From Haloferula rosea (GTDB lineage: Bacteria > Verrucomicrobiota > Verrucomicrobiia > Verrucomicrobiales > Akkermansiaceae): a stretch of DNA of 64,000 nucleotides. The notes under the pieces are model-generated. The model was given only the letters and a program-made list of their open reading frames with translations, had not been told where the DNA came from and searched no databases. Location: positions 62,001 to 126,000 of the forward strand of contig NZ_JAENII010000003.1 in NCBI RefSeq assembly GCF_016595525.1. Reading direction: 5' to 3'. The translations under genes and the position numbers were made by a program. This document shows positions 9,020-42,026 of this stretch, piece after piece; position 1 is the first letter of the stretch; every line of letters begins with the position of its first letter.

Positions 9020-9814
9020 TCAACGACTTGCCGTCGCATCCTTGGGAGCATTGCGCTTCAGGGCACCTGCTGTCTGATCGGCATACCAATCGTCGTAGGC
9101 CTTCTGGGACACGACTTCCATCTGCCCGGCCATGTTGCCATGACCTTCACCGCACAGCTGCGCGCAGACCACGGATGTCTCAAGTTCCTTGTTGGGCGTG
9201 AACCACATCGGAATGCTGCGTCCGGGGATGGCGTCCTGCTGGATGCGCATCGGAACGATCGCGTAATTGTGGATCACGTCGTTGGAGGTGATCATGAGGA
9301 TTGCCGGACGATCCTTGGGGATCTTCAACACCGAGGTGGTGAAGTCATCCATCGCATTCGGATCATCGAGATCGATTCCGGGGTCGCTGGCCGAAGTCTT
9401 GGAGCGGTGGTCGATCCGACCGAACTTGCCATCTTCACCCGGGTAGTGATAGGTCCAGCCGAACTGCCAGCCGATCACGCGAACCCGCACGGGATCCTGC
9501 TTCTGGACGGTCTCGAAGGTATCGGTACGCTCTTTCCAGAGCGGGAAAGCGAAGCCGAGAAGAAGCACCGCTTCAAGGATCACGATCCCGATCTCAAGGT
9601 GGCTGGAGACGTGGTTACGGACCCCGTAGTAGGACGCCTTGGGATTTGCCGATTGGCGGAACCGGACCAGGCAATACAGGAAGAACAGGGTCCAACCGAC
9701 GAACAGTGCAATCATCAGCCAGTGAACCACATCGATCATGTGATCAACGCGGCCACCATGGGCGGCAAAGTTTTCAGGGATGCCGAGAAATTTCGAGGGA
9801 CTCAGGGAGTTCAT
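9020..9814 (-). CDS. coxB: Cytochrome c oxidase subunit II (CuA subunit)
   Basis: A 264-residue subunit that accepts electrons from cytochrome c through a binuclear CuA centre. Two transmembrane helices (about 26-50 and 72-92) are followed by a periplasmic cupredoxin domain beginning VRVIGWQFGWTYHYPG. CuA ligands are visible as H182, C217, C221, H225 and M228 (CAQLCGEGHGNM); the position often occupied by Glu between the cysteines is Gln. There is no fused cytochrome c domain, so the oxidase is of aa3 rather than caa3 build. It is the last gene of the operon, separated from subunit I by subunits III and IV and two small genes, an unusual position because subunit II normally precedes subunit I. 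Confidence 0.96.
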   Translation of the reverse strand: MNSLSPSKFLGIPENFAAHGGRVDHMIDVVHWLMIALFVGWTLFFLYCLVRFRQSANPKASYYGVRNHVSSHLEIGIVILEAVLLLGFAFPLWKERTDTFETVQKQDPVRVRVIGWQFGWTYHYPGEDGKFGRIDHRSKTSASDPGIDLDDPNAMDDFTTSVLKIPKDRPAILMITSNDVIHNYAIVPMRIQQDAIPGRSIPMWFTPNKELETSVVCAQLCGEGHGNMAGQMEVVSQKAYDDWYADQTAGALKRNAPKDATASR

Positions 9815-10284: not shown

Positions 10285-10650
10285 CTACTCACTGACGGCC
10301 TCGGATGTCGGGCCACCCAGGCGGAAACCTTCATATTCGATCGGATCTCCCTTCGCGAGGAAGATCAGGGCGACCATGGCGACGGCAAAGAAGATGCCGA
10401 ATCCGAAGGTCCAGTAAACCCATGCCTTCTCGTGGTTGAGGTGCATGAAGATGAGGGCCACGAGCGTGGCCTTCGCCGTGGCAATCAAGAGACCGAGGAT
10501 CATGTCCGCCTTGTCAAAACCATGCCCACCGATGTCCATGGCGGGCACGGTCGCCACCATCACGGTGAGCACGGTGCCCACGAACAGGGCTGCGCCGATG
10601 ATCAGGTAGAGCTTGATGGACTTCTTGATGTCTTCTGGGGAGTCAGCCAT
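10285..10650 (-). CDS. Cytochrome c oxidase subunit IV (CoxD-like)
   Basis: A 121-residue integral membrane protein with three predicted helices: KLYLIIGAALFVGTVLTVMV, the stretch ILGLLIATAKATLVALIFMHL, and WTFGFGIFFAVAMVALIFL. The motif A-T-A-K-A-x-L-V-x-x-x-F-M-H-L is the signature of the bacterial oxidase subunit IV family (COX4_pro). The subunit is thought to stabilise the oxidase and has no redox centre. It follows subunit III by 52 bases and is transcribed with it. Confidence 0.92.
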   Translation of the reverse strand: MADSPEDIKKSIKLYLIIGAALFVGTVLTVMVATVPAMDIGGHGFDKADMILGLLIATAKATLVALIFMHLNHEKAWVYWTFGFGIFFAVAMVALIFLAKGDPIEYEGFRLGGPTSEAVSE

Positions 10651-10702: not shown

Positions 10703-12535
10703 TCACATGAGGTAGAAAATCGGGAATGCGAAGATCCAGACGAGGTCGACGAAGTGCCAGAACAGGCCTCCGACTTCCACCCGGTTGGCGAGCCACTCGG
10801 GATTGCTGAGATACATCTTCCGCCCGAAGAACAGGTAGTATCCGAGGACGATGGCACCACCGATGACGTGCAGGCCGTGCAGACCGGTAATCGTGAAGTA
10901 GATCGCGTAGTAGGTGTTCCACTTCGGGGTGAACTTGGAATCCAGGGCCACTTCCTCGCGGGGAACCACGATATGTGGGAACTTACGGATTTCGTAGTTC
11001 GGCCCCTTGAAGTGCTCGCTGAGCTTCATGGTCACCTTCGGCGGGGAGAACTTGCCCTCACCCACCTCGACCTGATCCAGCGGGGTTTCCATGTAGTAGG
11101 CAATCTCCTGCCATCCCATGCGGTAGCGGTCCTTGTGGGTCGGGACTCGCTTGGGTGTCACGCCGTCTTTCTCGAAGCCGTAGTGCTCGGTGAGGTTCTT
11201 CTCGAGTTGCCCGACCGCCTTCTGATGTTTCTCCCAGAGTTCTGCGACAATCGGATTCTCCTTCACCAACCAGCTCTCGGCGATCGCGACGAGCGGATCC
11301 TGGTTCTTCTCCTCGGCAATCATGACGAGGTGCTGGAAGTCGATGCCATCCACGTAGTGGAAATGCATGGCGCTGTCGGCATACTCCCCCTTCAGGGCGG
11401 TGCCGTCACGCAGGGCAATGTCGGTGTTTCCGACCGCATAGTCCGTGATCACGTCGTGGCTCTTGTAGCGAACCAACAGCGGTTTGCTCGCCTTGAAGGT
11501 AACGGCGGGCGCCTCAGGAAGTGCGATCTCGGTGTAGGTCTTGTCCTTGAGTTTCACGTCTTCGAACGATCCATCCGCCATCTTCACGGAAGCAATCGAC
11601 ACATCCGTCGCCATCCGTGCACGCATGCCGGCCTTCCAGCGTGCGTATGCCTTGTCACGCTCCTCGGGCGACAACTCGAAGGCCTTGGGGAACTCGGAGG
11701 CGAAGGCCGCTTCGCCGAGTAGATTCTTTTCCTTCACCTCAGCCTTCTTGATCGACCAGGCTTCGCGCAAATAGGCGGTCCGCTTCTTGGCGTTGAACCC
11801 GCGGTTCTCCAGATGGGCGTCCCGCAGCTTGGCAAGTAGATCAAGAGAGAGAGCTTCCCCTTCCGCAACCACCTTGTCCTCGTCGGTCTCGGCGATGCCC
11901 GGACGGTTCAGATCGAAGCCGGTGGCGAGTGTCAGCTGGACGCCTTGCGCTTCCGCTTCCGCAAGCATGGTTTCGACCCATGGCTTGTAGTAGCGCGCGA
12001 GGTCGAAGGTCACTTCAGAAACCTCGATGCGGTGGCGATTGGCTTCCACGGTATTCCCCATGGCGTCCTTGATCTTTTCTCCACCGTGACCGTGATCATC
12101 ACCATGTGCTTGCTCGTCGTGGGCACGCTCGTAATCGATGTGACCCTCGACCACCGAGTAGTCCGCGAGACGGGCTGCCTGGTGGTGGAACTTCACATTG
12201 TACTCGATGCCCTTGAACACCATGAAGATGGCGGCGCAGGCCACCGTGATGCCCATGAACAACTGGAACTTCGCCCACTGGCGCATCTTCAGCGAGGCCC
12301 AGGCAAAAACGACGGTGACCGACGAGGCGATCAGGATGAACGTGTTCAACAGGCCCGGCAACACGGGCAGCGTGCGTTCCGGCCACGGGTAGTCGGCTCC
12401 GATCCGGAGGAAGACATAGGCGGAGAACAGGCCACCGAAGAGCATGACTTCGGAAGCAAGGAACAGCCAGATGGCGATCTTCGAGTTGAAGAGGCCGGTG
12501 TCCTTACGCGGGGTGACAACAAAAGGGATTTCCAT
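10703..12535 (-). CDS. coxC: Cytochrome c oxidase subunit III with a ~415-residue insertion
   Basis: The 610-residue product is about three times the usual five-helix subunit III (about 200 residues). Helices 1-3 are normal (KIAIWLFLASEVMLFGGLFS, NTFILIASSVTVVFAWASLK, then GITVACAAIFMVFKGIEY to about residue 112), and helices 4-5 resume at residue 539 (YYAIYFTITGLHGLHVIGG; GLFWHFVDLVWIFAFPIFYL). Between them lies a hydrophilic, charged, cysteine-free insertion (about residues 120-537; bases about 10923-12178), with a His-rich start (HGDDHGHGGEK) and helical, Glu/Lys-rich sections. By subunit III topology the insertion should face the periplasm. The frame is open throughout, so this is not a frameshift artefact. 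Function of the insertion is unknown. Confidence 0.93.
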   Translation of the reverse strand: MEIPFVVTPRKDTGLFNSKIAIWLFLASEVMLFGGLFSAYVFLRIGADYPWPERTLPVLPGLLNTFILIASSVTVVFAWASLKMRQWAKFQLFMGITVACAAIFMVFKGIEYNVKFHHQAARLADYSVVEGHIDYERAHDEQAHGDDHGHGGEKIKDAMGNTVEANRHRIEVSEVTFDLARYYKPWVETMLAEAEAQGVQLTLATGFDLNRPGIAETDEDKVVAEGEALSLDLLAKLRDAHLENRGFNAKKRTAYLREAWSIKKAEVKEKNLLGEAAFASEFPKAFELSPEERDKAYARWKAGMRARMATDVSIASVKMADGSFEDVKLKDKTYTEIALPEAPAVTFKASKPLLVRYKSHDVITDYAVGNTDIALRDGTALKGEYADSAMHFHYVDGIDFQHLVMIAEEKNQDPLVAIAESWLVKENPIVAELWEKHQKAVGQLEKNLTEHYGFEKDGVTPKRVPTHKDRYRMGWQEIAYYMETPLDQVEVGEGKFSPPKVTMKLSEHFKGPNYEIRKFPHIVVPREEVALDSKFTPKWNTYYAIYFTITGLHGLHVIGGAIVLGYYLFFGRKMYLSNPEWLANRVEVGGLFWHFVDLVWIFAFPIFYLM

Positions 12536-12577: not shown

Positions 12578-14467
12578 TCAGTGCTCGGCGGGTTTCTCTT
12601 CCTCCTTTTGCGGCTGGTCCGCCTTGCGCTTGGGCTCTTCCCACTGTGGGAAGAAGTCCTCGTCATGATCGGGACGGCTATACTCATAGGGCCCGCGATA
12701 GACGACCGGTTCGGTGGTGAAGTTGCCGTGGCCCGGAGGAGTCGGCGTCGCCCACTCGAGCGTCGTCGCATTCCACGGGTTGTCGCTGGTCACCTTCTTG
12801 CCGATGAACTTGCTCATCACGAGGTTGATGAGGAAAGGAACCTGGGCGAGGGCCATGAACCACGCGCCGTAGGACATGAGAATGTTCAGGTCGATGTGCT
12901 CGGCGACGGTGGAACCGAAGACGTTGGCACTGTCGGGAGACTTGGCCAGGTAGGCATCGCCACCGTTGTACCAGCGGCGGTGGAAACCTGCCATGCCCTG
13001 CGTGAGCATCGGGAAGAAGATCAGGTTCATGCAGATCAGGCTCGGCCAGAAGTGCAGGTGGCTGAGCCAGCTGCTCATTTGGCGACCCGTGATCTTCGGA
13101 TACCAGTGATACACCCCGGCGAAGAGGCCGAAGAGGATGCCGGGGGCAACCACGTAGTGGAAGTGGCCGATCACATAGTAGGTGTCGTGCAGGTGCAGGT
13201 CCACGAGGTTGAAGGCGAGCGGAAGGCCGGTCAGGCCCCCGATGCCGAACATTGGCAGGAACGCACATGCCCAGATCATGGCCGGTGTGAAGCGGATCGA
13301 ACCGCCCCACAGCGAAATGATCAGGGAAGTCAGCAGAATGACCGACGGAACCGAAATCAACACCGTGGTGGTCTGAAACCAGGTCGAGACGATCGGCCCC
13401 ATTCCTGTCAAATACATGTGGTGGGCCCAAACGACGAACGAAAGGAAACCCAGGACAATCACGCCATAAACCATGCCCTTGTAGCCCCAGAGCGGCTTGC
13501 GGGTGTTGGCTGGAATGATCTCCGCCACACAGGCGATGGCAGGAAGTAGCAGGACGTAAACCTCGGGGTGACCAAGGAACCAGAAAAGGTGCTGGAACAG
13601 CAGCGGTGATCCACCACCGGACAACTCCAGGAGACCCTCCGCCTTCGTGTAGAGGCCAGACGGCATGAAGAACGAGGAGCCAGCAACCCGGTCCATGAGC
13701 TGCATGATGCCTGCGGCTTCAAGAGGAGGGAAAGCAAGGAGGAGGAGGAAACCCGTCACCAGCATCGCCCAGACGAAGAACGGCATGCGCATCCAGGTCA
13801 GTCCCCGGGCACGCAGGTTGATGATGGTGGTGATGAAATTGACCGAACCCAGAAGGGACGATGTGATCAGCAGCACGAGGCCAAGCAACCACTGTGTCTG
13901 CCCCGCGAGCCACTGGTTGACGATCTGCGCATCGGCAATGCCCGCCAAGGGAGAGTAGTTCGTCCAACCGGACTTGGCCGCACCGGATTCCATGAAGAAC
14001 GAGAAGCACATCAGCAATCCACCCGCGAGGTAGATCCAGTAGCTCATCATGTTGAGTTTCGGGAAGGCCATGTCGGGAGCACCGATCTGCAGGGGTGTGA
14101 CGTAGTTGCCGAACGCACCGAAGCCCAGCGGCACCACACCGAGGAAAACCATGATGGTGCCGTGCATCGCACCGAACATGTTGTAGGTCTCACCGGTCAC
14201 CTTGCCGTCCTGCAGCCAGCGGGCTTTCCAATCTTCCGTGAAAATCCAGCTCATCCAGCCGGGCAGAGGCTCGTGCGGGAAAGCGATGCTCCAGCGCATC
14301 ACCATCATCAGGTAGAAGCCGAAAAGCAGGAACAGTCCGGCGGTGATGCCGTACTGCAGACCGATCATTTTGTGGTCCGTCGAGAAGATATACTTTCTGA
14401 TGAACCCCGGGTCGTGGTGGTCATCGTGGTGGCCGTGATCGTCGGCGTGGGTGGCTGAGGCACTCAT
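12578..14467 (-). CDS. ctaD: Cytochrome c oxidase subunit I (aa3-type)
   Basis: Catalytic subunit of a heme-copper oxidase (629 residues, about 12 helices), reducing O2 and pumping protons at the inner membrane. Every ligand is present: H102 and H437 for low-spin heme, H435 for high-spin heme, H300, H349 and H350 for CuB, and Y304 for the His-Tyr crosslink. The GHPEVY motif carries E302, as in A1-type proton-pumping oxidases. The N-terminus is His/Asp-rich (HADDHGHHDDHHDP), possibly metal-binding. It precedes subunit III by 42 bases. Its intact active site contrasts with the CcoN-like protein encoded upstream in the same operon. Confidence 0.97.
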   Translation of the reverse strand: MSASATHADDHGHHDDHHDPGFIRKYIFSTDHKMIGLQYGITAGLFLLFGFYLMMVMRWSIAFPHEPLPGWMSWIFTEDWKARWLQDGKVTGETYNMFGAMHGTIMVFLGVVPLGFGAFGNYVTPLQIGAPDMAFPKLNMMSYWIYLAGGLLMCFSFFMESGAAKSGWTNYSPLAGIADAQIVNQWLAGQTQWLLGLVLLITSSLLGSVNFITTIINLRARGLTWMRMPFFVWAMLVTGFLLLLAFPPLEAAGIMQLMDRVAGSSFFMPSGLYTKAEGLLELSGGGSPLLFQHLFWFLGHPEVYVLLLPAIACVAEIIPANTRKPLWGYKGMVYGVIVLGFLSFVVWAHHMYLTGMGPIVSTWFQTTTVLISVPSVILLTSLIISLWGGSIRFTPAMIWACAFLPMFGIGGLTGLPLAFNLVDLHLHDTYYVIGHFHYVVAPGILFGLFAGVYHWYPKITGRQMSSWLSHLHFWPSLICMNLIFFPMLTQGMAGFHRRWYNGGDAYLAKSPDSANVFGSTVAEHIDLNILMSYGAWFMALAQVPFLINLVMSKFIGKKVTSDNPWNATTLEWATPTPPGHGNFTTEPVVYRGPYEYSRPDHDEDFFPQWEEPKRKADQPQKEEEKPAEH

Positions 14468-14592: not shown

Positions 14593-15354
14593 TCAGCCCT
14601 CGGTTTCGACAGGTTCGAGGGTGATGGGGTCGAGCATTGTGCTCGGGTCCAGAGGTTCGCCAGGAAGCATCTTGGCGTGATCGGCGGAAAGTTCGTCTGC
14701 ACTGGTCGGTGCCCCTGCATTCGCACGGGCTTCGGAAATCGCAATCGCTTCTGCAGCCATTTCGCTGGTCACCACATCGCCCACGGAATTGCCGAAGGAG
14801 TTGCGGACATAGGTCATGACCGCGGCGAGGTCCGTGGGACTCATGCCAATGCCTTGGGCAGGCATCACACCCCAGTTCTTGCCGGTGCTGCTTGGGCCGC
14901 TGAGACCGTTGAGCACGATCATCGCGAACTTCTGGGTATCACCGACCACCCAGTCGGATCCGGCCAACGCAGGGTAAGCTCCCCCACCCTTGCCGTCCGG
15001 AGCGTGGCAACCGATGCACTTGCCGTAAATCTTTTCGCCCTTGGCCATGTAGACCTTCAAGGCCTCGGCAGGTGGAGGACCCGCTGAATCACCGCCATCG
15101 AGCGCGGCACGGACGTATCCGGGACGGACCGTCTCGTCGTAGTTGAACAAGGTGCCGGCACTTCCAAGTGCCAGACCGGCAATCAAAAGAATGAAGGCGC
15201 AGGCGCCGAATACCCACAGGGACATCGGCTCGCGACCCCCTTCGTCGACGTGCTTCTCACGCTGAACCGCTGCGGCATCGCGAACGGTCCGGTCGTGCGA
15301 CTCGGTGACGTTGAGCGACTCGTCGAGATCAGGCTTATTGGAGGAATCTTGCAT
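14593..15354 (-). CDS. Membrane-anchored monoheme cytochrome c (between CcoO-like and CtaD)
   Basis: A 253-residue protein with an N-terminal cytoplasmic stretch, one transmembrane helix (about 45-67), and a periplasmic class I cytochrome c domain with a CIGCH heme site (about residues 113-117), GMSPTDLAAVMTYVRNSFGN near the C-terminal helix, and a long acidic tail. It probably carries electrons between the alternative complex III side and the oxidase. It lies 13 bases after the CcoO-like gene and 125 bases before ctaD. It resembles the other operon cytochrome (17597-18403) in architecture and C-terminal motif, suggesting an ancient duplication. Confidence 0.92.
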   Translation of the reverse strand: MQDSSNKPDLDESLNVTESHDRTVRDAAAVQREKHVDEGGREPMSLWVFGACAFILLIAGLALGSAGTLFNYDETVRPGYVRAALDGGDSAGPPPAEALKVYMAKGEKIYGKCIGCHAPDGKGGGAYPALAGSDWVVGDTQKFAMIVLNGLSGPSSTGKNWGVMPAQGIGMSPTDLAAVMTYVRNSFGNSVGDVVTSEMAAEAIAISEARANAGAPTSADELSADHAKMLPGEPLDPSTMLDPITLEPVETEG

Positions 15355-15367
15355 GGAAACGGATTGC

Positions 15368-16072
15368 TTAACCTTCCTGGTTGCTGGTGGCAGGGGCGTA
15401 GTTCATCGACGCCGGCACCGGGTCGTCGTGCTTGAGGGACATGAGATAGTCAACCAGGGCGCGTGCCTGGTCTCCGGGGACCACCTCATAGCCATCCTCG
15501 GTCGGCACATCGAGGGCCGCCTCGGACTTCTGACCGGTGATCTTCCGGGTCTCGAAAAGGAAGCTGAACGAGGGGCAGGACGACCAATCCGTCAGCGCTG
15601 GAATCAATCGTGGATTGTAGAGGTGCTTGTAGAGATACCCCTTCGCATCCGCGCCGTAATTCGCTTCCATACGCAGCCCCACATTCATCAGGTCCGGTCC
15701 GAGACGAGTGACACCGATCTGCGCGAAATCAAGGCCGATGTAGTCGAAGACATTCGACTCGCGTCGCGTGTCACCACGCTCTGGGTCAGCCTTCAGTCCA
15801 CCGAAGTCAGGACGGCCGAGATCATTGCCGGCATAGGTGGGGCGCACGACCTGAGTGTGACACTGGTAGCAGCCGTTGGCGGCATAGACGTTCGCTCCGT
15901 TCACGACACGACCGGCCCGCTTCGGGTGGTAGATCCCCTCTTGGGCATCGATCCCCTCCTCAAAGGAAACGGGCGACGGATTACGGAGCTTGAAGAACGG
16001 AACGACCACCATGGCCAGCCAGGCGAGGCCGAAGCTGGCGGTGAGACCGATGGCAAATTGACGGAAGGTCAT
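15368..16072 (-). CDS. CcoO-like monoheme cytochrome c subunit (cbb3 subunit II homologue)
   Basis: A 234-residue protein with one N-terminal transmembrane helix and a periplasmic cytochrome c domain. Family motifs are GRVVNGANVYAANGCYQCHT with heme site C68-Y-Q-C71-H72, VVRPTYAGNDLGRP, and RLGPDLMNVGLRM, whose Met129 is a likely axial ligand. In true cbb3 oxidases CcoO hands electrons to CcoN. Here the CcoN-like partner lacks its active site, so this cytochrome may pass electrons to another acceptor. The gene follows the CcoN-like gene by 27 bases. Confidence 0.93.
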   Translation of the reverse strand: MTFRQFAIGLTASFGLAWLAMVVVPFFKLRNPSPVSFEEGIDAQEGIYHPKRAGRVVNGANVYAANGCYQCHTQVVRPTYAGNDLGRPDFGGLKADPERGDTRRESNVFDYIGLDFAQIGVTRLGPDLMNVGLRMEANYGADAKGYLYKHLYNPRLIPALTDWSSCPSFSFLFETRKITGQKSEAALDVPTEDGYEVVPGDQARALVDYLMSLKHDDPVPASMNYAPATSNQEG

Positions 16073-16099: not shown

Positions 16100-17584
16100 T
16101 CAGTGAACCATGGAACCCGCGTTGTCGATGTCCCCTTCGGGACCGTGCGGGTTGTCGTGATGCGGGTCGACCAGCAGGGTCGGGTGCGAACTACGACGAC
16201 CGAGACGCAGCCACATCAGCGTGAGGTGGAGGAAGAAGAAGACGTTCGAGATCAGGAGGAAACTCCAGGCCACGGTCGTGGCCAAAGCGTAGGGGCTGGC
16301 GAAGCCGGCAGCATTGTACCACGGCTGCGTGAAGTCTTCCTGACCCACTCCCTGCATGAGCCCACCGAATAGTGCGACGAGCACGACGACGCTGACGCCG
16401 TAGATGGACAGGAAGAAGTGCATCTTGATGAGACGGCGGGAAAGCCACTCACGACGCGTGATGCGAGGCACGATGAAGTAGATGGCACCGAAAGCGATGA
16501 AGCTGAAGAAGCCGTAGATGCCCAGCACCTCGAAGCCGTAGCCGGAAATCGTGAACTGGGTGATCGAGATGATCTTGGGGGCGTTCAGAACCACGCTGGC
16601 GAGGCCGAAAACGAGCAGGAAGATCAGACCCCAAACCGTGAAACGAAGCGTGGGGCTTTCGTTGACCGTCTTCAGATCGGTCGCTGCCGTCTTCAGCAGG
16701 TTGATCCCGGCCATGGCGGCGGGCACGGCGAACAGGATCGCGGCAAATGCGCCGAGGTAAGGAAGGAAGTTCGGGATCGGCGCACCGGTCATCTTCTGAA
16801 GTCCGGCCCATGGCGCGACGATGGCCAGCGTCCAGAATCCGATCAGGGACAGGGAGTAGTTGTAAACCGGACGACCGAGCACCTTCGGCACGAGGTAGTA
16901 GGCCATGGCGATGCCGACCGGCGCGAAGAAGAGCAGCAGCATGGCGGAGCGGAACCAGGCGTTCACTCCTGCAGCGCCCAGCGGGCTGCCGCCAAAGCCA
17001 TGCACGAGGAAGTGCGATGAGCCGAAGAACCATGGGAACCAGATCAGCGCGGCGAGCAGATACCACTGGGAGATGTAGGTGTGACCGGCGGGGCGGACCT
17101 TGAACTGAACCATCGACCAGATCGCGATGCCGATGTAGGCCAGCAGCATGGGCATCCACGCGAAGGAAGGCATCTCCATCCATGGCATCCCGGTCCCGCC
17201 ACCGGCAAAGATGCCGATGATGCCGAGCGACAGGGCGAAGTTCCAAACGTGGCCTGCGACCAGGATGGTGCCGGCATTCCGGCAGGTCTGACGCGAAAGG
17301 CGGGCCATCAGCCAGATCATCATGCCGAAGGCTGCCTGGCAGCCCCATCCGTAGATCAATGCGGCCTGGTGCGCGGCGTTGACACGACCGTAGGTCATCC
17401 ATGAGCAGTCGCCGAGGTAGTCGGGGCTCGTGACTTTCGCATTCGATACGATGCCGAGAAGAATGGCCACCGCCAACCAGGCGGCACCACTGGTGAAGAA
17501 GAACATCACCGGGTGGCGCAATGAGCGGTCGATCGACGCGCGCAGCACACCATCCTTGTCGTAGTTGGGATCAGGAACGGACAT
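16100..17584 (-). CDS. CcoN-like subunit lacking heme b3, CuB and most heme b ligands
   Basis: A 494-residue polytopic membrane protein with clear cbb3 subunit I similarity: AHQAALIYGWG, the MAYYLVPKVLGRPVYNYSLS stretch, and the region ending AIYFIVPRI. An ungapped comparison with recalled classical CcoN motifs shows the ligands replaced. The CuB His of WWYGHNAV aligns with S213, the crosslinked Tyr with A257, the HH pair with Q263 and K264, and the HVH heme ligands with F351 and V353. Only H72 (low-spin heme, helix 2) remains. The frame is full-length and uninterrupted, so this looks like a selected, non-catalytic protein. It cannot be a normal O2-reducing oxidase. Confidence 0.93.
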   Translation of the reverse strand: MSVPDPNYDKDGVLRASIDRSLRHPVMFFFTSGAAWLAVAILLGIVSNAKVTSPDYLGDCSWMTYGRVNAAHQAALIYGWGCQAAFGMMIWLMARLSRQTCRNAGTILVAGHVWNFALSLGIIGIFAGGGTGMPWMEMPSFAWMPMLLAYIGIAIWSMVQFKVRPAGHTYISQWYLLAALIWFPWFFGSSHFLVHGFGGSPLGAAGVNAWFRSAMLLLFFAPVGIAMAYYLVPKVLGRPVYNYSLSLIGFWTLAIVAPWAGLQKMTGAPIPNFLPYLGAFAAILFAVPAAMAGINLLKTAATDLKTVNESPTLRFTVWGLIFLLVFGLASVVLNAPKIISITQFTISGYGFEVLGIYGFFSFIAFGAIYFIVPRITRREWLSRRLIKMHFFLSIYGVSVVVLVALFGGLMQGVGQEDFTQPWYNAAGFASPYALATTVAWSFLLISNVFFFLHLTLMWLRLGRRSSHPTLLVDPHHDNPHGPEGDIDNAGSMVH

Positions 17585-17596
17585 GGTCAGAAAAGG

Positions 17597-18403
17597 TCAG
17601 GGGGCCGGAAGGAGGTCGGCTTCGGTCAGCATCGGCTTACCGATTTCGGAACGCAGCGCCTTCACCTGCTCGGGAAGGACGGGAGGGGCCGAGTTGCCGA
17701 AGGAATTGCGAACGTAGGTGAGCACGGCAGCGACGTCCTCGTCGGAGCTCGCGGCACCCATGGGAGCCATGGGAGCGGGGAAATTGTACTCCTTGCCCGA
17801 CACCGTGATGGGACCGGTCAAGCCACGCATCTGGATCCGGATCAGGTTCGACACGGGGCCAGTCACCCAGTTGGAATTGGCAAGCGGTGGACCGACAGGG
17901 CCGCCTTCGCCATTCATGCCATGACAGGCCATGCAGATCATGTAACCGGCCTTGCCCTTCTCCATCACCGCGGGATCGGGAGCCGTGCCGGCTTCAGGAG
18001 TCATCGCATCCACCGCACCGTAGTCGGTATCGGAAGGGGCATTCGCCAGAGCTTCGGCAGCCGCCGAACCCGGAATGACCTGGGCCGGATCGTCCACCTT
18101 GGTCGGCTGGGATGCCAGCAATTGGGAACCGATGAAATCGTAGATGTCGGAAGGCTTCGCCTGGACCGTTTCGGCACCATCGTCCGCCTTCTTCCACTCC
18201 AGGTTGGCGGCTTGAGCGGATTCGACGTCGTTGCTGATCTTGAGGCGGTTCAGTCTGGCTGCTTCCTCGAGCGGATCCTCGCCATCACCACCACCCGCGA
18301 CCAGACGGACGATGATCAGGACGACGAAGAACAGGGAGATCACGCCGATCCCCCACCAGAAGGCGGCGAATCGGATGAGTGGATTGTCACGGGTTGGCTC
18401 CAT
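17597..18403 (-). CDS. Membrane-anchored monoheme cytochrome c (between ActF and CcoN-like)
   Basis: A 268-residue protein with an N-terminal transmembrane helix (about 8-35), an Ala/Asp-rich linker of about 100 residues, and a C-terminal cytochrome c domain. The heme site is CMACH, followed by GEGGPVGPPLANSNW, and the last helix reads VLTYVRNSFGNSAPP. Position between alternative complex III and the CcoN-like gene, together with the anchor, recalls CcoP (cbb3 subunit III), but CcoP usually has two hemes and this has one. It probably shuttles electrons within the periplasmic face of the respiratory assembly. Confidence 0.91.
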   Translation of the reverse strand: MEPTRDNPLIRFAAFWWGIGVISLFFVVLIIVRLVAGGGDGEDPLEEAARLNRLKISNDVESAQAANLEWKKADDGAETVQAKPSDIYDFIGSQLLASQPTKVDDPAQVIPGSAAAEALANAPSDTDYGAVDAMTPEAGTAPDPAVMEKGKAGYMICMACHGMNGEGGPVGPPLANSNWVTGPVSNLIRIQMRGLTGPITVSGKEYNFPAPMAPMGAASSDEDVAAVLTYVRNSFGNSAPPVLPEQVKALRSEIGKPMLTEADLLPAP

Positions 18404-18447: not shown

Positions 18448-19785
18448 TCAGTTCGAGACGTTGGCGGACTCGAGGATGCGGGGGTCGCGGTTCGGGTAGA
18501 GGTTGTTCTGACCGAGTGAGCGGAGATAAAAGAAAACGAAACCGGAACCGATCGTGATGAAGGCGAGGATATCACCGAGGAAGGCACCGGGGATCGTGGT
18601 TTCGACGTCTCCATAGACGTCAGGGAGCATGTTCATCAGGGAGATGGAGCGCTCCGGGATGGCGATCAGGTAGTGATCGAGGATGTGCATGACGAGCGTG
18701 TAGACCGCCATCAGGCTGAGGGTCTTCGGGTTCCGCTTCAGCCAGGCCTGCAGGAGGATGACGAAGGGCACCACGAAGTGGAAAACCACCAGAGCCATCA
18801 TGCCGATGTTCCAGCCACCGGTGTTACGGATGAGGAAGTATTTCGTTTCCTCCGTGATGTTCGCATACCAGATCAGGAAATACTGGGAGAAGGTGACGTA
18901 GGCCCAGAAAATGGTGAACGCGAGGAGCAGCTTGCCCTTGATGTGGAAGTGCTCGGGGGTGACGACCTTCTTCATGTAGCCCGCCCGCTGGAGCAGAGCG
19001 ACGGTGATGATGATCACGGCCATCGAGTTCAGCGCGGAACCTGCGAACAGGTAGACGCCCCACATGGTGGAGAACCACGTGTAGTCCAGACCCTTGAGCC
19101 AGTCGAAACCGGCGAAGGTGATGGTGATCGCGAAGATGATCAAGGTGTAGGTCGAATGGAAGCGGGCACGGAACAGGCGGGATGTGCCCGGATTCGGATC
19201 GGTATCCTGGGCGACCGACAGCTTGCGCAGGCCGAGGATCACCGCGCTCAGACCGATGAAGTAGAAGATGAAGCGACCATACCAGAACGGGATGTTGAGG
19301 TACCAGTGCTTCAGGTAGAGCAGGTGGTCGTGCGGATCACCGGTGTGGTGCAGGGCTTCCTTCACGGAATACTCACCCCCGTGGGTATCGAGTCCACGGT
19401 GCATGTTCATCCACTCGTAGAGATACTGCTGGACGTTCGGAATCAGAAGCGGGATGGCGAAGATGAACATCCAGGGATACACGGCGCCGAGGTTCTCGAA
19501 CACGCGGCGGACGGATGTCCCCCACCCCGAGTTGGAGACGTTGTGAAGCAGCGTCCAGAAGCATCCACCCACCGCAAGGGTGAAGAAGAAGAACAGGGCG
19601 AAGACCCAGGAATAGGCGTAGTTGGCCGTCCAGGTTTCCTTGGGACCAAACAGCAGGATCGCGCTGACGATGGAAAGCAGCAGCGACACGCCGCCGGCGA
19701 TCATCTTGATCTTATCGACTTTGGCGCTCTTCAGACGCTCCCCATCGGGGGCGACGTCAGCGGAGGTGACAATGTGGGATGCCAT
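18448..19785 (-). CDS. actF: Alternative complex III membrane subunit ActF
   Basis: A 445-residue polytopic membrane protein of the quinol:cytochrome c oxidoreductase (ACIII). It is NrfD/PsrC-related, paralogous to ActC, with about ten predicted helices. Recognisable stretches are NVSNSGWGTSVRRVFE, the NIPFWYGRFIFYFIGLSAV helix, FAGFDWLKGLDYTWFSTMWG and AFTIFWAYVTFSQYFLIWYA. It contributes to the membrane core. The gene follows actE by 15 bases and is the last of the canonical act series; no actG was seen. Confidence 0.94.
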   Translation of the reverse strand: MASHIVTSADVAPDGERLKSAKVDKIKMIAGGVSLLLSIVSAILLFGPKETWTANYAYSWVFALFFFFTLAVGGCFWTLLHNVSNSGWGTSVRRVFENLGAVYPWMFIFAIPLLIPNVQQYLYEWMNMHRGLDTHGGEYSVKEALHHTGDPHDHLLYLKHWYLNIPFWYGRFIFYFIGLSAVILGLRKLSVAQDTDPNPGTSRLFRARFHSTYTLIIFAITITFAGFDWLKGLDYTWFSTMWGVYLFAGSALNSMAVIIITVALLQRAGYMKKVVTPEHFHIKGKLLLAFTIFWAYVTFSQYFLIWYANITEETKYFLIRNTGGWNIGMMALVVFHFVVPFVILLQAWLKRNPKTLSLMAVYTLVMHILDHYLIAIPERSISLMNMLPDVYGDVETTIPGAFLGDILAFITIGSGFVFFYLRSLGQNNLYPNRDPRILESANVSN

Positions 19786-19800: not shown

Positions 19801-20490
19801 TTAGTTGGCGGCTTGGGAGGCTTCGTAGGCGGCCTTGACCTTCGGGTCGGCGAGCGGCGCCTTGCGGGCGATCTGGAGGGCGCGGACATAGGCGACCACG
19901 GCCCAGCGATCGCGGACGGAGATGTTGTGCTTGTAGCCACCCATGTTGCCCTTGCCGTTGGCGATGACGTCGTAGAGACGACCATCCGGGTAGGCGGCCT
20001 GGCCGAAGTTATCGAGGGTCAGATTGGCGACACCGGGGACACCGAAGCTCGTGGTGATGCCGAGGCCGTCCCCGGACGCTCCGTGGCATGGCATGCAGTT
20101 GATGTCGTAAACTTCTTCGCCGCGGCGGAGGAAGGCTTCGACGTTCTCTTCGTTCAGCTCAAGCTCCCCGGGCATGCCGTTCGAGAAGTATCCCTCGATA
20201 CCACCGGTGTAGTAGTATCCGGTCTCACCGCCGAATTCGTATTCATGGATGCCGCCGAGCTTGTTGTCTCCATCGGCAAGGAAACCGACGGGTTGGGTGC
20301 CGTCGACAGGCTCGCGCGACCCCACGCCATCGGCGAAGAAGTCACTGGGCACCTGATGCATGACCTTGTCCTGGTCATCCATGTCGGGGAACAGGCGGAT
20401 CGGAGTCTTGGCCGTCTTGTCCCCGCGCATCGGAAGGAGGCCGATGACGAGGGCTGCGATGATCGCGTAGGCGAGGAAGAAGTATTTCAC
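19801..20490 (-). CDS. actE: Alternative complex III monoheme cytochrome c subunit ActE
   Basis: A 229-residue periplasmic cytochrome c tethered by an N-terminal hydrophobic segment (KYFFLAYAIIAALVIGLL). The heme site is CMPCH in NCMPCHGASGDGLGI, with a later NMGGYKHNISVRDRWAVVAY region supplying the Met side of the heme and the closing helix. In ACIII it is the electron exit toward cytochrome c or oxidase. Start codon is GTG (complement of 20488-20490). Flanked by actD and actF with gaps of 24 and 15 bases. Confidence 0.94.
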   Translation of the reverse strand: MKYFFLAYAIIAALVIGLLPMRGDKTAKTPIRLFPDMDDQDKVMHQVPSDFFADGVGSREPVDGTQPVGFLADGDNKLGGIHEYEFGGETGYYYTGGIEGYFSNGMPGELELNEENVEAFLRRGEEVYDINCMPCHGASGDGLGITTSFGVPGVANLTLDNFGQAAYPDGRLYDVIANGKGNMGGYKHNISVRDRWAVVAYVRALQIARKAPLADPKVKAAYEASQAAN

Positions 20491-20514: not shown

Positions 20515-21069
20515 TCAGCCTTCTTCTTCAACGAGCTCGATGTTCGAGCCACCGATCTCCTCGAGGAGCGACTTGGTGGCGTCGGGGCTGAATTTCGGGT
20601 CACGCGCTTCGATCGCGATGAAGAACGCGTCGTCGGTGGTGCGGTGGAACTGCTTGCTGGCGAACAGCGGGTGGTTCAGGCGTGGCAGCTTCATGAGGGC
20701 CAGCAGGCCGAAGAGCACGGTGAAACCGGAGAACAGGATGGTCAGCTCGAACATCACCGGGAAGAAGGCCGGGATGGTGAAGATGTTCACCGGCTTGGCC
20801 TGGACGACGGTCGGGTAGATCAGGACCTGGGTCGAGTAAGCCAGAAGGAAGGCGGTCAGGGTGCCGGTGGCACCGCCGAAAAACACCAGCCATGGAAGGA
20901 TGGAACGCTTCATGCCCATGGCGCCGTCAAGCCCGTGGATGGGATAGGGCGAATGGCAGTCCCACTTGCGGAAACCGGCATCGCGCACTTTCTCGGCCGC
21001 CTTGTAGAGGGCAGAGGCGCTCTTGAACTCGGCGAGGTAGCCGTAAACTCGTTTGCGTGTGGTGCTCAC
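20515..21069 (-). CDS. actD: Alternative complex III subunit ActD (DUF3341)
   Basis: A 184-residue protein with the DUF3341 signature: an N-terminal regulatory-like fold (YGYLAEFKSASALYKAAEKV, then GFRKWDCHSPYPIHGLDGAM) followed by two transmembrane helices (around 58-80 and 100-125) and an acidic C-terminal domain ending DDAFFIAIEARD. In ACIII structures ActD packs against ActC and has no redox centre. Start codon is GTG at 21067-21069. It is 29 bases after actC. Confidence 0.94.
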   Translation of the reverse strand: MSTTRKRVYGYLAEFKSASALYKAAEKVRDAGFRKWDCHSPYPIHGLDGAMGMKRSILPWLVFFGGATGTLTAFLLAYSTQVLIYPTVVQAKPVNIFTIPAFFPVMFELTILFSGFTVLFGLLALMKLPRLNHPLFASKQFHRTTDDAFFIAIEARDPKFSPDATKSLLEEIGGSNIELVEEEG

Positions 21070-21098: not shown

Positions 21099-22583
21099 TC
21101 AGGCCTTGGCCGTCTCGTTGCCGGACAGCTCCTGCTGATAGGCTGCGATGGGTTCGGTCCCTTCGTCCGGATGATCCTCGTGATCATCATGATGCGGATC
21201 AGACTCGGGCAGGGTCCACTTCACTTCCGCAATGTTGATGCAGGGAAGGAAACGGAGGAAGAGGAGGAAGAGCGTGAGGAACATCCCGATCGTGCCGACG
21301 AAGAGGAGTTGGTCCTGACCACTCGGGGAGTAGTATTTCCAATCACCCGGCAGCCACATGCGGGACAAGGTGGTGACGATGATCACGAAGCGCTCGAACC
21401 ACATGCCGCAGTTCACACACATCGCCACGGCCATCACGACCCACAGGTTCTCACGGCACCAGCGGAACCAGAAGATCTGCGGCGAGAGGACGTTCAGACC
21501 CATCATCCAGAAGTAGGCCCAGTTGAACGGACCGGAAATCCGGTATTTGAAGGCTTCCATCTCGAACTTGGCTCCCGAGTAGAAGGCCACGAAGAGCTCC
21601 ATCAGGTAGGCGTAACCGACGATCGTGCCGGTCAGCAGGATGATCTTCGCCATGTTGTCGATGTGCTTCATCGTGATCAGGTCCTGAAGACCGTAGATGA
21701 AGCGGGCCGGAATCATGATGGTCAGCACCATCGCAAAGCCACCGAAGATGGCGCCCGCCACAAAGTAGGGCGGGAAGATGGTGGTGTGCCAACCCGGCAC
21801 GACCGAGGTGGCGAAGTCGAAGGACACGACCGAGTGCACGGAGAGCACCAGTGGTGTGGAAAGGGCGGCCAGAAGGAGGTAGGCCATCTCGTAGTGGCTC
21901 CACTGGCGGTTGCCGCCACGCCAACCGAGCGAGAACAGTCCGTAGAGGAACTTGCGCAGGCCGGGCTTGCAGCGATCGCGGATGGTCGCGAGGTCAGGCA
22001 CCATGCCGAGGTACCAGAAGATGAGGGAAACGGTGAAGTAGGTGGACACCGCGAACACGTCCCAAAGAAGCGGTGACTTGAAGTTCTGCCAGATCGCGTT
22101 GGCGTTCGGGATCGGAGCGAGGAACCAGGCCATCCAGACACGGCCGACGTGGAAGGCCGGGAAGATGCCCGCGCACATCACGGCGAAGATCGTCATGGCT
22201 TCGGCCGCCCGGTTGATCGAGGTCCGCCAGTTCTGACGGGTCAGGAAGAGAATCGCGGAAATCAGCGTTCCAGCGTGTCCGATACCGATCCAGAACACGA
22301 AATTCACGATCGGCCATCCCCACATCACACGGTTCGTGTTTCCCCACACACCGACACCGGTCGAGACGAGGTGAAACAGGCCACCACCCACGCCGACGGC
22401 GGCAATGAGGGCGCTGGGAAGGAACAGCAACCACCAGAGGAATGGCTGGCGGTTCTCGAGGACGCCGCAAATCCGCTCGGTGATCCAGTGATAGGAGCGA
22501 CCGTTGAGGATCAGCTTCTCACGCTTGAGAACGGGAAGCTTCGGGCCTTGCTGGGCAGTTTTGGTTTCGGTGGCAGTGGCCAT
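21099..22583 (-). CDS. actC: Alternative complex III membrane subunit ActC (NrfD/PsrC-like)
   Basis: A 494-residue polytopic membrane protein of the NrfD/PsrC family, with about ten helices, which forms the main quinol-oxidising membrane subunit next to ActB. Characteristic stretches are [20 protein letters not shown], the [19 protein letters not shown] region, [12 protein letters not shown]-like loop ([18 protein letters not shown]), and [20 protein letters not shown]. The C-terminus is acidic and His/Asp-rich ([15 protein letters not shown]). It lies 39 bases after actB. Confidence 0.95.
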
Positions 22584-22622: not shown

Positions 22623-25600
22623 TCAGTGCATGTTGATCGTGGCTTTGCCGATCAGTTCGGCACCCGGCATGTCGGCATTCGGATTCTTGACCCGTGCGAG
22701 GTAACTCGTCCGTGGTCGGGTTCCGATGTATTGAAGGAGGTCGTAGTTCCGCTCGATGCCTTTCGAGCGCACCATGCGGCTCTTGTCCTCGTCGAGGAGG
22801 TTGCCGAAGGAGATCGCATCCGCCGGGCAGGCTTCCTGGCAGGCCACCTTCACGGAGTCCACCGGGATGCGCAGCGTGTTGACGCCGATTTCAGTCGCGG
22901 TCGAGTCACCGGTGGCAAGAGCCGCCTGCTTTTGTCCACGCTTCTGGCGGATCGTCGAGTCCTTGAGGCGTTGCACGCAGTAGGTGCACTTTTCCATCAC
23001 ACCCCGCATCCGGACGGACACGTTCGGGTTGCGTTGGAGGTGGGCGGAAGTGCCGACGGTCTTCTCGCCGAGCGGGCCACGGTAGAGGTTGTGGGCGACC
23101 AGCGGGTTGCGCTTGTTGTAGTCGAAGAAGTTGAAGCGACGCGCCTTGTACGGGCAGTTGTTCGCGCAATAGCGGGTGCCGATGCAGCGGTTGTAGGCCA
23201 TGGCGTTGAGGCCGTCCTCGGTGTGGACCGTGGCGTTGACCGGGCAGACCGTTTCACAGGGAGCGGATTCGCACTGCACACAGGCGACCGGCTGCGGAAT
23301 CATCTCCATGTTCTCTTCGTCGAACACCGGCTTGTCGTTCTCATCGACCACACCATGACCGTGGTCGTCGGTGAGTTGCTGCGAGGCAAAGTAGCGATCC
23401 ATGCGGATCCAGTGCATCTCACGCCCCTTCGCAAGCTGCTCCTTGCCGACGATCGGGATGTTGTTTTCCGACTGACAGGCGACCAGGCAGGCGTTGCAGC
23501 CCATGCAGGAGGTCAGGTCGATGGACATGCCCCACTGGTGGAGCTTGTCGCTGAGGAGTGAGTTGCCCTCGCGGTCCTCGGACTTGTAGAGCGACACGTT
23601 TGGAGGGGCATGGGAGTCCATCCCGTGCTTCTTCACCTTGGAGAGCTGCTTCTCGAAATCACCCTTCTTCTTGTCGGCCATCGTCGACACCTCACGGGCG
23701 AGGGCACGGCCATACATCGAGTGGTGCTCCTGGACCGCAGCAAGCGTGTAGGCCTTGCCGGTCTTGGCCGGAGCGGCGTCAAGCGCGGCGAAATATGGAT
23801 TGCCCATGCTGCGCAGCGGATAGGCATCGAAGCCGGTATTCACGCCGACCTGGCCGACGTGGGCTTCGTTCGCGGTGCTGCGGCCGAGTTCGTCATCGGC
23901 ATTGAACCCCTGACCGTAGCCAAGGGAAACGATCACCGTGTTCTCGGCCTGACCGAAACCGATCTGGACCGGCACTTCGATGGTGGTGCCGTTCACACTC
24001 AGGCTGATGAGCTTGCCGGTGCGGTGCTCCCCTTCCCCATCGGGCGGGACGGCGGAAGTCGGGGTTTCAAGGGGCACGACTTCCTCGTAAAGCCCGAGTT
24101 CCTTGGCGGTTTTCGGTGCGATGAGGGCCACGTTGTCCCAAGAGATTTTCGAGGTCGGATCCGGAGCTTCCTGAAGCCAGCCATTGTCGATCCAGCGACC
24201 GTCGTAGATCGAGCCGTCGGTGGCGAAGATCACTTCGATCTTGTCGCTTTCAGGCTGTGCCTTCTGCGCCTTGGTCAGGGCGGCAGCGTCGAGATTCGGA
24301 GTGCCTGCTTCGTACTTCGAATCGGCGAGGAAACCTTCGCGGAGAAGGGTTTTCCATGCCTCTTCCTTGTCACCCGCAAGATCTGAGAAGGTCTTGCGAA
24401 CTTCGGTGTAGGCGGGGGATGCCGCTTCTTCCTCACCTTCGCCGGTGAGCAGCTTGCCATCATCGGAAAGCAGAGCACTCAGCACTTCAAGCTCGCTGGC
24501 GCACTCGTCGTAGAGTGGCAGGATCATCGGCTGCACGATGGTGTAGACCCCCGTCGAGGTGCGCGCATCCGACCAACTCTCAAGGTAGTGGGCCGCGGGC
24601 ACGTGCCAGGTCGAGGCGTGCGCCGTGGCGTCGGTGCGCAGACCGAAGTGGATGCTGGTCTTCGCCTTGGCGAGTGCTTCACCGAACTTGAGGTCGGCGG
24701 GAGCGTCGTAAACGGGGTTGGACGGGGTGAAGAAGAGCACGTGCTCGACGACTCCACCGAGATCCTTCTGCAGTTGGACGATGTCACCGAGGCCTTGGGC
24801 GTCGGTCTTGACCACCTGAAGTGCCTTGGCGGCGCCCACGGAACCAAGCTTGGCATTGATCGCCGCAGCGAGGTGATGCACTGCTTCCGGAGCACGCGAA
24901 CCCGCCACCACGATGGCCTTCTCGCCGCTGGCCTTGAGATCCTTGGCCATGGCATCGATCCATGCGGCAGAACGTCCCTGAGCCGGCTTGCCCTCGACCG
25001 CCTTGAGCACTTCCTGAGCGACGGCTACCAGTTCGCTGGGCTTCACGCGCAGGCGGTGATCCGCCATGCCGCCGGTCAGCGAGAAATTGCTTTCCACCTG
25101 ATACAGGCGATTCATGCCATCGGCGCTCGGCTTGTTCTTGTAGTCCTTCCCTTCCGGCTTGCGGCGATCGAAGAACGGAGTGATCGGACCGACCGGGTCG
25201 AGTCCGGCGAAGTCACAGTCGAGGGAAAGAATGCGGTCGGCCTTGGCGAAATCGGCCACCAGACGCTGCCCGTCACCCACTGCCTTGTGAGCTTCTCCTT
25301 CGAGGGCTTCGTAGGCGTAGAACTTGGCGTTCGTGAAGGTGGAACCCAATTCCTTCACCAGGCGCGCACGCGACGGTGAGTCATCGCGACCAAACACGAA
25401 GCCGATCTTGGCGCTCTTGTCGGCGGCCAGCGCGGCGAATGCCTTCTCGAACTCGGCACGGCCCGAGGGCTTGCCACCCTTCAGCACGCGGCGCGAGCGC
25501 GACGGCGAGTAAAGATCGAGCACGGAGGCCTGAGCAAACGAATCGGTGCCGACCTTCTCGGGATGCGAGGTATTCGGAGCCAGCTTGGTCGGACGGCCTT

Positions 25601-25964
25601 CGAAGCTCGTCACCACCAGCGGCGTCGCTCCGTGAGCACGCGGGAAACTGGAGGCGTAATAGGTCGCCTTCCCGGGGATGACCCACTCGGGAGCATTCGC
25701 GTAGGGAAGGATGTAGCTTTCCGGGCGACGGCAGGCGGCCATACCGAAGCCAGCCAGCGCGGTCGAAGCACCCATCAGCTTGAGGAACGAACGACGCGAG
25801 GTCTCGGCCTCGGACTCGTCGGCCATCTCAGCGGCTCCCTGGGGAAATTCACGTTCCAGCCAATTGCGGAAATCGGCGGTGTTTTCGAGCTGTCCGACAC
25901 TACGCCACGAGACAGTTTTCTCGTCGGCGGGGAGGTCGGGGTGTTGCCAGATGCGTTTGCTCAT
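22623..25964 (-). CDS. actB: Alternative complex III iron-sulfur subunit ActB
   Basis: An 1113-residue peripheral protein: a molybdopterin-oxidoreductase-like domain without a recognisable cofactor role, fused to a ferredoxin-like iron-sulfur domain (from about residue 810). The N-terminus carries a Tat-like signal, [13 protein letters not shown] (55-67), ending at C78 in a lipobox-like setting (MAAC). Cluster cysteines lie in [52 protein letters not shown], and the late CTYCVQRL and [13 protein letters not shown] pairs. This layout fits a [3Fe-4S]/[4Fe-4S] wire leading from quinol to ActA. It follows actA by 20 bases. Confidence 0.95.
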
Positions 25965-25984: not shown

Positions 25985-26707
25985 TCAGTGGTGGCAGGTG
26001 GCGCAGGACTCACGCGGCGTGACCTGCCACATTTCTTTGAGCTTGAGGCCCAAATCCTTGGTCGTCGTTACTCCAAGGCGTTCGGCGTTGGTCACACCAT
26101 TGACCTCCTTGGCGAGATACTTTTCAGGGTCATACTCGAGGTTGTAGACCTCCTCGAGCGGACGGAGGTGCTCCTCAGGCGCACGGTGACACTCGAGACA
26201 CCAGCCCATCGACAGATTCTGATCCTGATACACGACTTCCATCTGGTCGACGCGGCCGTGGCAGCTCTGACAGGAAATCCCGCGGTTCAAGTGAGCGGAG
26301 TGGTTGAAATACACGTAGTCCGGCGTCTTGTGGATGCGGACCCACTCGATCGGCTTGCCGAAATCGGGGTGCTTGAGAAGCGGATCCATCCGGTTGCGCA
26401 GCGGCTGAAGCTTCGGGCTGTCCTTCTGCACGTGCTGGTGGCAGTTCCAGCAGGTATTCGAGGTCGGCACGTTCGAGTGACCCGAAACATCGACGAAGGA
26501 GTGACAGTAGCGGCAGTCCAAGCCGAGTTGCTCCACGTGGATCCGGTGCGAAAACGGAATCGGCTGCGAGGGCTGGTAACCGACAGCGAGCGTTTTGGGA
26601 GTTGCGTAATACGTAAAGCCCGCCACCACGCCTGCCCCGAGGGCTCCGACGCAGATCGCGATCTTGAACGGAAGGAAGTTGGTCCAGCGCGGGAAAATGT
26701 TGGCCAT
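25985..26707 (-). CDS. actA: Alternative complex III pentaheme cytochrome c subunit ActA
   Basis: A 240-residue protein with an N-terminal membrane anchor (FKIAICVGALGAGVVAGFTY) and five CxxCH heme sites: CRYCH, CWNCH, CQSCH, CLECH and CATCH, the usual number for ActA. It takes electrons from the iron-sulfur clusters of ActB and passes them to ActE. First gene of the respiratory operon. The ATG at 26705-26707 is preferred over an upstream in-frame GTG at 26764, because that GTG lies inside the palindromic operator and would put 19 polar residues before the anchor. Confidence 0.95.
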   Translation of the reverse strand: MANIFPRWTNFLPFKIAICVGALGAGVVAGFTYYATPKTLAVGYQPSQPIPFSHRIHVEQLGLDCRYCHSFVDVSGHSNVPTSNTCWNCHQHVQKDSPKLQPLRNRMDPLLKHPDFGKPIEWVRIHKTPDYVYFNHSAHLNRGISCQSCHGRVDQMEVVYQDQNLSMGWCLECHRAPEEHLRPLEEVYNLEYDPEKYLAKEVNGVTNAERLGVTTTKDLGLKLKEMWQVTPRESCATCHH

Positions 26708-26748
26708 GACGGTCGTCGAAAGATGCTCAGCGGGGGGAAACTGGGGGC

Positions 26749-26766
26749 TTGTGAAAAATTTCACAA
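26749..26766. promoter_or_regulatory. Rex-type (or CRP-like) operator upstream of the respiratory operon
   Basis: The 18-base sequence TTGTGAAAAATTTCACAA is a perfect match to the Rex operator consensus TTGTGAAN4TTCACAA. It is the core of a 10+10 inverted repeat (26747-26768). The same site matches the CRP/FNR-superfamily pattern TGTGA-N6-TCACA. It sits 42 bases before the actA ATG. Rex represses respiratory genes when NAD+ is high relative to NADH, which fits an operon of electron-transport genes. No Rex or CRP gene is in the window, so the cognate factor is unknown. Confidence 0.72.
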
Positions 26767-41243: not shown

Positions 41244-41369
41244 GGACCTTCGCGGAAATCCGCGCGGATGCCAGTCTTTGCTCCTGTCCGATTCTGAGGA
41301 AACGATGGTCTGATCCGAAAGCATCGGTTTCGTTTCGCGATCGCCCGTGATTTCCGCTAGGGTCGCGGG

Positions 41370-42026
41370 ATGAAGGCTCTGGTCAACCTCTTGGCGGTTT
41401 TGCTGCCCCTCCTCCCCGGGACCCTCGAGGCAGGATCCCTGCGACACGCCAAGCCGGACACAAAAAGCTACGAATTTCAGGATGGCGACATCGTCTTCCA
41501 GGGAAATGCCTGCCCTCAGAGCGACGCGGTCCGCGCGGCCACCGACTCCCGATTCACCCACTGCGGCGTGGTCTTTTCCCACGAAGGAAAGTGGATGGTC
41601 ATGGAGGCGATCCACCCGGTGCAGATCACCCCGCTGAAGCAATTCGTCGACCGCAGTCTGCCGGACACCTTCCACGCCATGCGGCTCCGGAATGCGCCGG
41701 ACAAGACCAGCATCGCTCAGGCAAAGGCATGGGCGACCCGGCAAGCCGGCTTGCCATACGATTTGAAATTCCAGTGGGACGATGAGGCATTGTACTGCTC
41801 CGAATTTGTCTGGAAGCTCTATGACCGGGCGGGAGTGCGTCTGTGCAAGACACGCAGCTTCAAGAACTACAAGCTGGATTCCCCGGTCGTGAAGCGGGTC
41901 ATCGACCAGCGCTACGGCGGCATCCACAACCTACCACCCGACGAACCGGTTGTCGCCCCTTCCGACCTCGCCGCCTCCCCCTTGCTGGTCGAGGTGCCAC
42001 ATGCGGGCGGAAAGAAGCTGCGCTAG
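41370..42026 (+). CDS. YiiX-like permuted papain-fold cysteine hydrolase
   Basis: A 218-residue exported protein of the YiiX/YebB (PF05708) family, a permuted NlpC/P60-type fold. A signal peptide (ALVNLLAVLLPLLPG) precedes the catalytic His (H64 in SRFTHCGVVFSHEG) and nucleophile Cys (C143 in ALYCSEFVWKLYDRAG), in that reversed order typical of permuted members. The family acts on peptidoglycan or lipid-linked bonds; the substrate is unknown here. It is read divergently from the PI-PLC gene over a 126-base gap. Confidence 0.9.
   Translation: MKALVNLLAVLLPLLPGTLEAGSLRHAKPDTKSYEFQDGDIVFQGNACPQSDAVRAATDSRFTHCGVVFSHEGKWMVMEAIHPVQITPLKQFVDRSLPDTFHAMRLRNAPDKTSIAQAKAWATRQAGLPYDLKFQWDDEALYCSEFVWKLYDRAGVRLCKTRSFKNYKLDSPVVKRVIDQRYGGIHNLPPDEPVVAPSDLAASPLLVEVPHAGGKKLR

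Follow-up and report, generated by a model that had tools for sequence, protein, structure and literature searches.

The window, a stretch of 64,000 nucleotides from Haloferula rosea, carries a respiratory operon in which a relative of CcoN, the catalytic subunit of cbb3-type oxidases, keeps the predicted fold of that subunit and has lost nearly all of the residues that would bind its metals. The gene lies between those for alternative complex III (ACIII) and those for an aa3 oxidase, it is under purifying selection, intact forms occupy the same operon slot in sister lineages, and the state of the active site has changed repeatedly within the class. The identity of the operon as ACIII plus aa3, the intact sister forms and the recurrence of loss go beyond the initial annotation of the locus. 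We consider it likely that this pseudo-oxidase is kept as a membrane anchor that holds CcoO- and CcoP-like cytochromes against ACIII, with electrons passing on without any O2 chemistry.

A CcoN fold without its metal centre

The gene for the CcoN-like protein is real and its reading frame is uninterrupted (Table 1). The product matches Pfam COX1 (3.6e-38), the TIGR00780 ccoN family (E 3.8e-31; 108.5 bits, short of the curated cut-off of 583) and CcoN chains in the PDB (E 1.8e-21 and 4.3e-20). AlphaFold predicts a helical bundle (pLDDT 87.3, pTM 0.89) for which the top Foldseek match is cbb3 subunit I. Comparison with the CcoN of 3mk7 gave TM scores of 0.84 (query) and 0.89 (target) and an rmsd of 1.9 Å over 456 columns, at about 20% identity, and by this measure the model has the fold of a C-type haem-copper oxidase subunit I.

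Of the seven active-site residues, six metal-binding His and a cross-linked Tyr, H72 alone is retained, aligning with H60 of 3mk7. The CuB ligands H207, H257 and H258 of 3mk7 correspond to S213, Q263 and K264, the haem ligands H345 and H347 to F351 and V353, and the cross-linked Y251 to A257. The initial annotation had read the protein as a full-length relative of cbb3 subunit I with an intact frame and H72 as its sole remaining ligand; the searches, the structure prediction and the alignment bear this out, down to each residue assignment. Replacement ligands among the other histidines are ruled out by the alignment: H112, H191 and H195 vary among close relatives, and the counterpart of H389 in genuine CcoN is H384, a conserved histidine that is not a ligand. 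None of these four residues, whose placement at the metal sites had been named beforehand as evidence against the reading, is found there.

The likeness to cbb3 CcoN extends from the fold to the adjoining genes for CcoO-like and CcoP-like cytochromes; the difference lies in five missing metal ligands, the missing Tyr and a TIGR00780 score far under the cut-off. The protein resembles pseudoenzymes in general, in which catalytic residues are lost and the fold is kept under selection. We found no haem-copper oxidase among pseudoenzymes in the open-access literature searched, and no earlier description of an inactive CcoN in open-access literature.

An operon of ACIII, cytochromes and an aa3 oxidase

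The operon runs along the minus strand in the order ActA-B-C-D-E-F, an extra mono-haem cytochrome c, the CcoN-like and CcoO-like genes, a mono-haem cytochrome c, CoxA, CoxC, CoxD and CoxB. ActA to ActF are present in order, ActD and ActF being assigned by position and conservation only. The arrangement of ActA-F, CcoN-like gene, CcoO-like gene and cytochrome c is conserved class-wide, in keeping with the conserved operon position that had been noted initially; the extra cytochrome occurs mainly in the window's own family. The aa3 oxidase is intact, with both the CoxA active-site and the CoxB CuA motifs kept, and CoxB is the sole COX2 match in the genome. The same genome encodes a second, separate CcoN (L002) with all seven active-site residues, and no cytochrome bd oxidase was detected in it.

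Table 1. Genes of the respiratory operon, with positions in the window.
Feature	Position	Strand	Remarks
ActA, multihaem cytochrome of ACIII	25985..26764	-	five CxxCH in nearly all relatives
ActB of ACIII, molybdopterin-oxidoreductase-like with Fe-S	22623..25964	-	
ActC (NrfD family) of ACIII	21099..22583	-	basis of the reference tree
ActD-like subunit of ACIII	20515..21069	-	operon position
ActE-like mono-haem cytochrome c of ACIII	19801..20490	-	
ActF-like integral membrane subunit of ACIII	18448..19785	-	operon position; no Pfam match
Extra mono-haem cytochrome c	17597..18403	-	between ActF and CcoN-like genes
CcoN-like protein without metal ligands (pseudo-CcoN, CcoN fold)	16100..17584	-	494 aa
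CcoO-like mono-haem cytochrome c	15368..16072	-	CxxCH intact; axial Met replaced by Cys166
Membrane-anchored mono-haem cytochrome c	14593..15354	-	CcoP position
CoxA, aa3 subunit I	12578..14467	-	active-site motifs intact: GHPEVY, HHMY, HDTYYVIGHFH
CoxC, subunit III	10703..12535	-	610 aa; very large insert
CoxD, subunit IV	10285..10650	-	
CoxB, subunit II	9020..9814	-	CuA motif CAQLCGEGHGNM intact

ACIII and an aa3 oxidase are likewise paired in the supercomplex of Flavobacterium johnsoniae, in which they exchange electrons (PMC8552683, PMC8361435) and subunit III is the contact of aa3 with ACIII (PMC8361435); in the window the two are linked by co-localization of their genes. The Flavobacterium complex as described has no CcoNO-type module, whereas the window has the pseudo-CcoN/CcoO/cytochrome c block between its ACIII and aa3 genes. 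Almost all full-length ACIII operons of Verrucomicrobiales encode a CoxC of about 455–670 residues, versus 225–295 residues in the other listed loci. Elsewhere in the window, the minus strand encodes an 896-residue protein with a PI-PLC X domain and ricin-type lectin domains (39237-41927) and a 918-residue regulator of MalT-like TPR and LuxR type with an AAA domain (33268-36024).

The CcoO-like cytochrome had been called intact at the outset. This holds for its CxxCH motif and fails for the axial Met, the position of which aligns with Cys166. Cys occupies this position in 67 of 88 relatives drawn from the genus and named-genome searches, and Met is found at all 21 checked loci with an intact CcoN; CxxCH is kept throughout (45/45 lost and 21/21 intact loci). 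Judged from these residues, His/Cys ligation of the haem is possible in the cytochrome with Cys166.

Intact and lost copies in one operon slot

A homologue search across 388 genomes of the phylum found matches in 117, and we read the neighbourhoods of 106 ACIII-linked CcoN copies, scoring each for the seven active-site residues (six His ligands and the Tyr). All seven are present in 40 copies and three or fewer in 64, and two copies are part-way, L247 with six residues (HRYHHHH) and L250, from genome G525, with five (HHCSHHH). G525, which is split into 350 contigs, has no other PF00115 match.

The same substitutions were sought, as had been suggested, in 91 Verrucomicrobiales relatives, comprising 11 loci of the window's genus and 80 found when named genomes were scanned (Verrucomicrobiales-type records, among them Luteolibacter, Haloferula, Roseibacillus, Rubritalea, Persicirhabdus and Prosthecobacter). 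The active site is absent from all 91, and the loss of ligands in the window copy is thus not a matter of chance. H72 is present in 87 of these relatives, Q263 in 84 and K264 in 70, a conservation that hints at a specific role beyond that of a passive scaffold. Class-wide, the H72 equivalent is kept in 16 of the 64 lost copies, and the residues at the ligand positions of lost copies differ widely between lineages.

The intact ACIII-linked form is probably a working oxidase. In genomes G001 (99% complete) and G146 (98%) PF00115 matches nothing but the ACIII-linked CcoN, and the search for cytochrome bd gave no match, which suggests that the ancestral module probably was one as well. All seven residues were read in the copy from G001 (L061), a genome of the same genus as G146. 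An ACIII-linked copy is also the sole haem-copper match in G389, where it is intact (L257) and where weak bd-family matches occur as well. The genomes with a lost copy that were compared by eye with the PF00115 tables each have another strong haem-copper oxidase match.

Repeated loss under purifying selection

On a tree of ActC from 92 loci, in which the two part-way copies were scored as lost, the state of the active site changes at least 16 times, nine changes being forced by well-supported branches; these counts carry no direction. A single lost clade, and with it one ancient loss, is rejected on this tree (p = 4.9e-59). Since the regain of seven exact residues is implausible, the changes would be losses or replacements. 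In f3, f11 and f95, and for most of the tested f5 copies, a lost copy has its nearest intact counterpart within its own family, which argues against wholesale replacement. The exceptions are L264 in f11 and L073, L080 and L087 in f5; because the nearest intact copies of these last three come from other families, gene swaps may account for some clades, notably theirs. Within genus g32, intact L252 and lost L068 are 94% identical in ActC, 87% in ActF and 49% in the CcoN-like protein.

The CcoN-like protein's own tree gathers 63 lost copies into one clade, which is likely due to long-branch attraction, and could also reflect fewer losses together with gene swaps. With the first 66 copies, one ancient loss is marginally disfavoured on this tree (p = 0.035) and becomes acceptable once either L044 or L064 is left out. 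In the enlarged set L044 no longer nests among intact copies but joins the other lost ones, and we therefore do not count it as a clearly separate loss; L064, which both trees place within a group of intact copies, is the clearest separate case. Raw counts lean towards adjacent aa3 genes at lost loci (25 of 59, versus 6 of 33 intact loci), but comparison of independent pairs gave p = 1. Adjacent aa3 genes are thus uncorrelated with loss after phylogeny is considered, and replacement of CcoN by an aa3 oxidase of the same operon does not explain the losses in general.

Pairwise NG86 estimates of dN/dS for lost copies range from 0.02 to 0.19, like those of ActF, the CcoO-like gene and an intact pair (0.074), although dS exceeds 1 in several pairs and single values are rough. 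Taken together, the repeated change of state and the purifying selection indicate that the active site was lost again and again in a protein that was itself retained. Intact copies share 131 conserved positions, of which 63 persist in 70% or more of the lost copies and 34 are dropped. The kept set includes 27 positions that differ from canonical CcoN and so are typical of the ACIII branch; the dropped set includes every ligand and the equivalents of R57, E122, H337, T215, S240 and Y251. Several of these we take to be haem propionate contacts or part of the proton-channel lining in cbb3 structures. Lost copies diverge faster than ActC.

Verrucomicrobial methanotrophs

The pMMO/AMO family PF02461 was found in all 13 genomes of family code f4 and in none of 14 control genomes, identifying the f4 genomes as verrucomicrobial methanotrophs. 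Besides the ACIII-linked CcoN, the haem-copper matches inspected in f4 were a NorB-like protein and members of the A-type and of a ba3-like type. At the seven active-site positions, four of the five aligned f4 copies read SESSHFV and one reads ADAAHQT, and a structure model of one copy has the CcoN fold (TM 0.84–0.86).

Published accounts of verrucomicrobial methanotrophs place ACIII next to cbb3 genes or count cbb3 among the oxidases (PMC8498564, PMC11102522, PMC10205796), list it as one of three terminal oxidases (PMC8498564, PMC10205796) and, in the Kam1 genome paper, relate the cbb3 genes beside ACIII to a high affinity for oxygen (PMC6688271). The ACIII-associated C-type oxidase of Opitutaceae and verrucomicrobial methanotrophs (PMC8498564, PMC6688271, PMC11102522) shares with the window the order of ACIII followed by CcoNO-type genes. 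These papers treat the oxidase as working, whereas the pMMO-bearing genomes examined here have no binuclear centre in their ACIII-linked copy. The reported 'cbb3 oxidase next to ACIII' of methanotrophs appears to be such a dead copy, judged by setting our loci beside the published descriptions.

The CcoN-like search gave no match in G008, which belongs to f4 but to a different genus (g13); this agrees with a review according to which not all three oxidases occur in one of the species, Methylacidithermus pantelleriae. Near a NorB-like gene, G008 encodes a divergent haem-copper family protein of 485 residues (L157, 6410-7864; PF00115 about 136 bits).

Discussion

The protein in the window would derive from the catalytic subunit of an ACIII–cbb3 module that lost its haem b3–CuB centre and, in the window's lineage, the bis-His low-spin haem b site as well. 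The initial proposals of a non-oxidase and of a repurposed scaffold both fit what we observe, since the metal ligands and other pocket residues have been dropped selectively from a retained fold that is under purifying selection and keeps many of its conserved positions. What we infer beyond this concerns the physical complex, the electron route and the cofactor content of the module. The pseudo-CcoN would be retained as the membrane anchor of the CcoO-like and CcoP-like c-type cytochromes against ACIII. Electrons would pass from menaquinol through ActB, ActA and ActE of ACIII to the c haems of three cytochromes (CcoO-like, CcoP-like and extra), and onward to the CuA of the aa3 oxidase whose genes adjoin or to another acceptor elsewhere, the CcoN fold itself performing no O2 chemistry. 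Its retention between two respiratory machines across a large group, in the face of repeated loss of the site, suggests that it probably survives as a structural bridge.

It is unlikely, though worth weighing, that a single haem b is still held by H72, with five-fold coordination or some unusual distal ligand, and works as a relay of electrons across the membrane, a gas sensor or a quinol-reactive haem. The persistence of H72 in Verrucomicrobiales although the other ligand positions changed would suit such a haem, as would three copies of another family (L044, L241 and L243) that keep both low-spin haem b ligands. However, the position of V353 is I, V, L, T or M in Verrucomicrobiales, the conserved counterparts of R57, E122 and H337 have largely disappeared from the lost copies, and most lost copies class-wide do without H72 itself. 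We see hardly any chance of a different metal centre formed by non-His ligands or by H112, H191, H195 or H389: the window copy does have several further histidines, but the variability of the first three and the non-ligand counterpart of the fourth speak against it.

A quinone- or quinol-binding or ion-conducting subunit of ACIII is improbable. A multi-helix membrane fold beside a menaquinol oxidase, with the polar pair Q263-K264 conserved at former CuB ligand positions, could be read in this way, but we found no quinone-site signature in the CcoN-like protein and ACIII already contains ActC and ActF; the quinone-binding module offered initially as an alternative gains no support here. We give very little credence to a decaying relic carried along by the operon. 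Such a relic would account for the varied residues at the ligand positions and for divergence faster than that of ActC, but simple decay is rejected by the low dN/dS and by retention, both of the kept conserved positions and of an open reading frame, found at the same point of the operon in dozens of family codes.

With some reserve, we favour the view that the catalytic subunit of a terminal oxidase has turned into a non-catalytic structural part of a different respiratory complex, many times independently within one class, leaving a series of copies from working through part-dead to nearly ligand-free and a coupled change from Met to Cys in a partner cytochrome. Genome annotation labels these genes cbb3 oxidases, and physiology is then inferred from them; if the ACIII-adjacent copy cannot bind metals, the inferences about oxygen affinity and three oxidases need redoing. 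With a single operon slot that holds intact copies in some lineages and part-dead or dead ones in others, the transition from enzyme to scaffold would become testable, and with it the question of what CcoN does besides catalysis.
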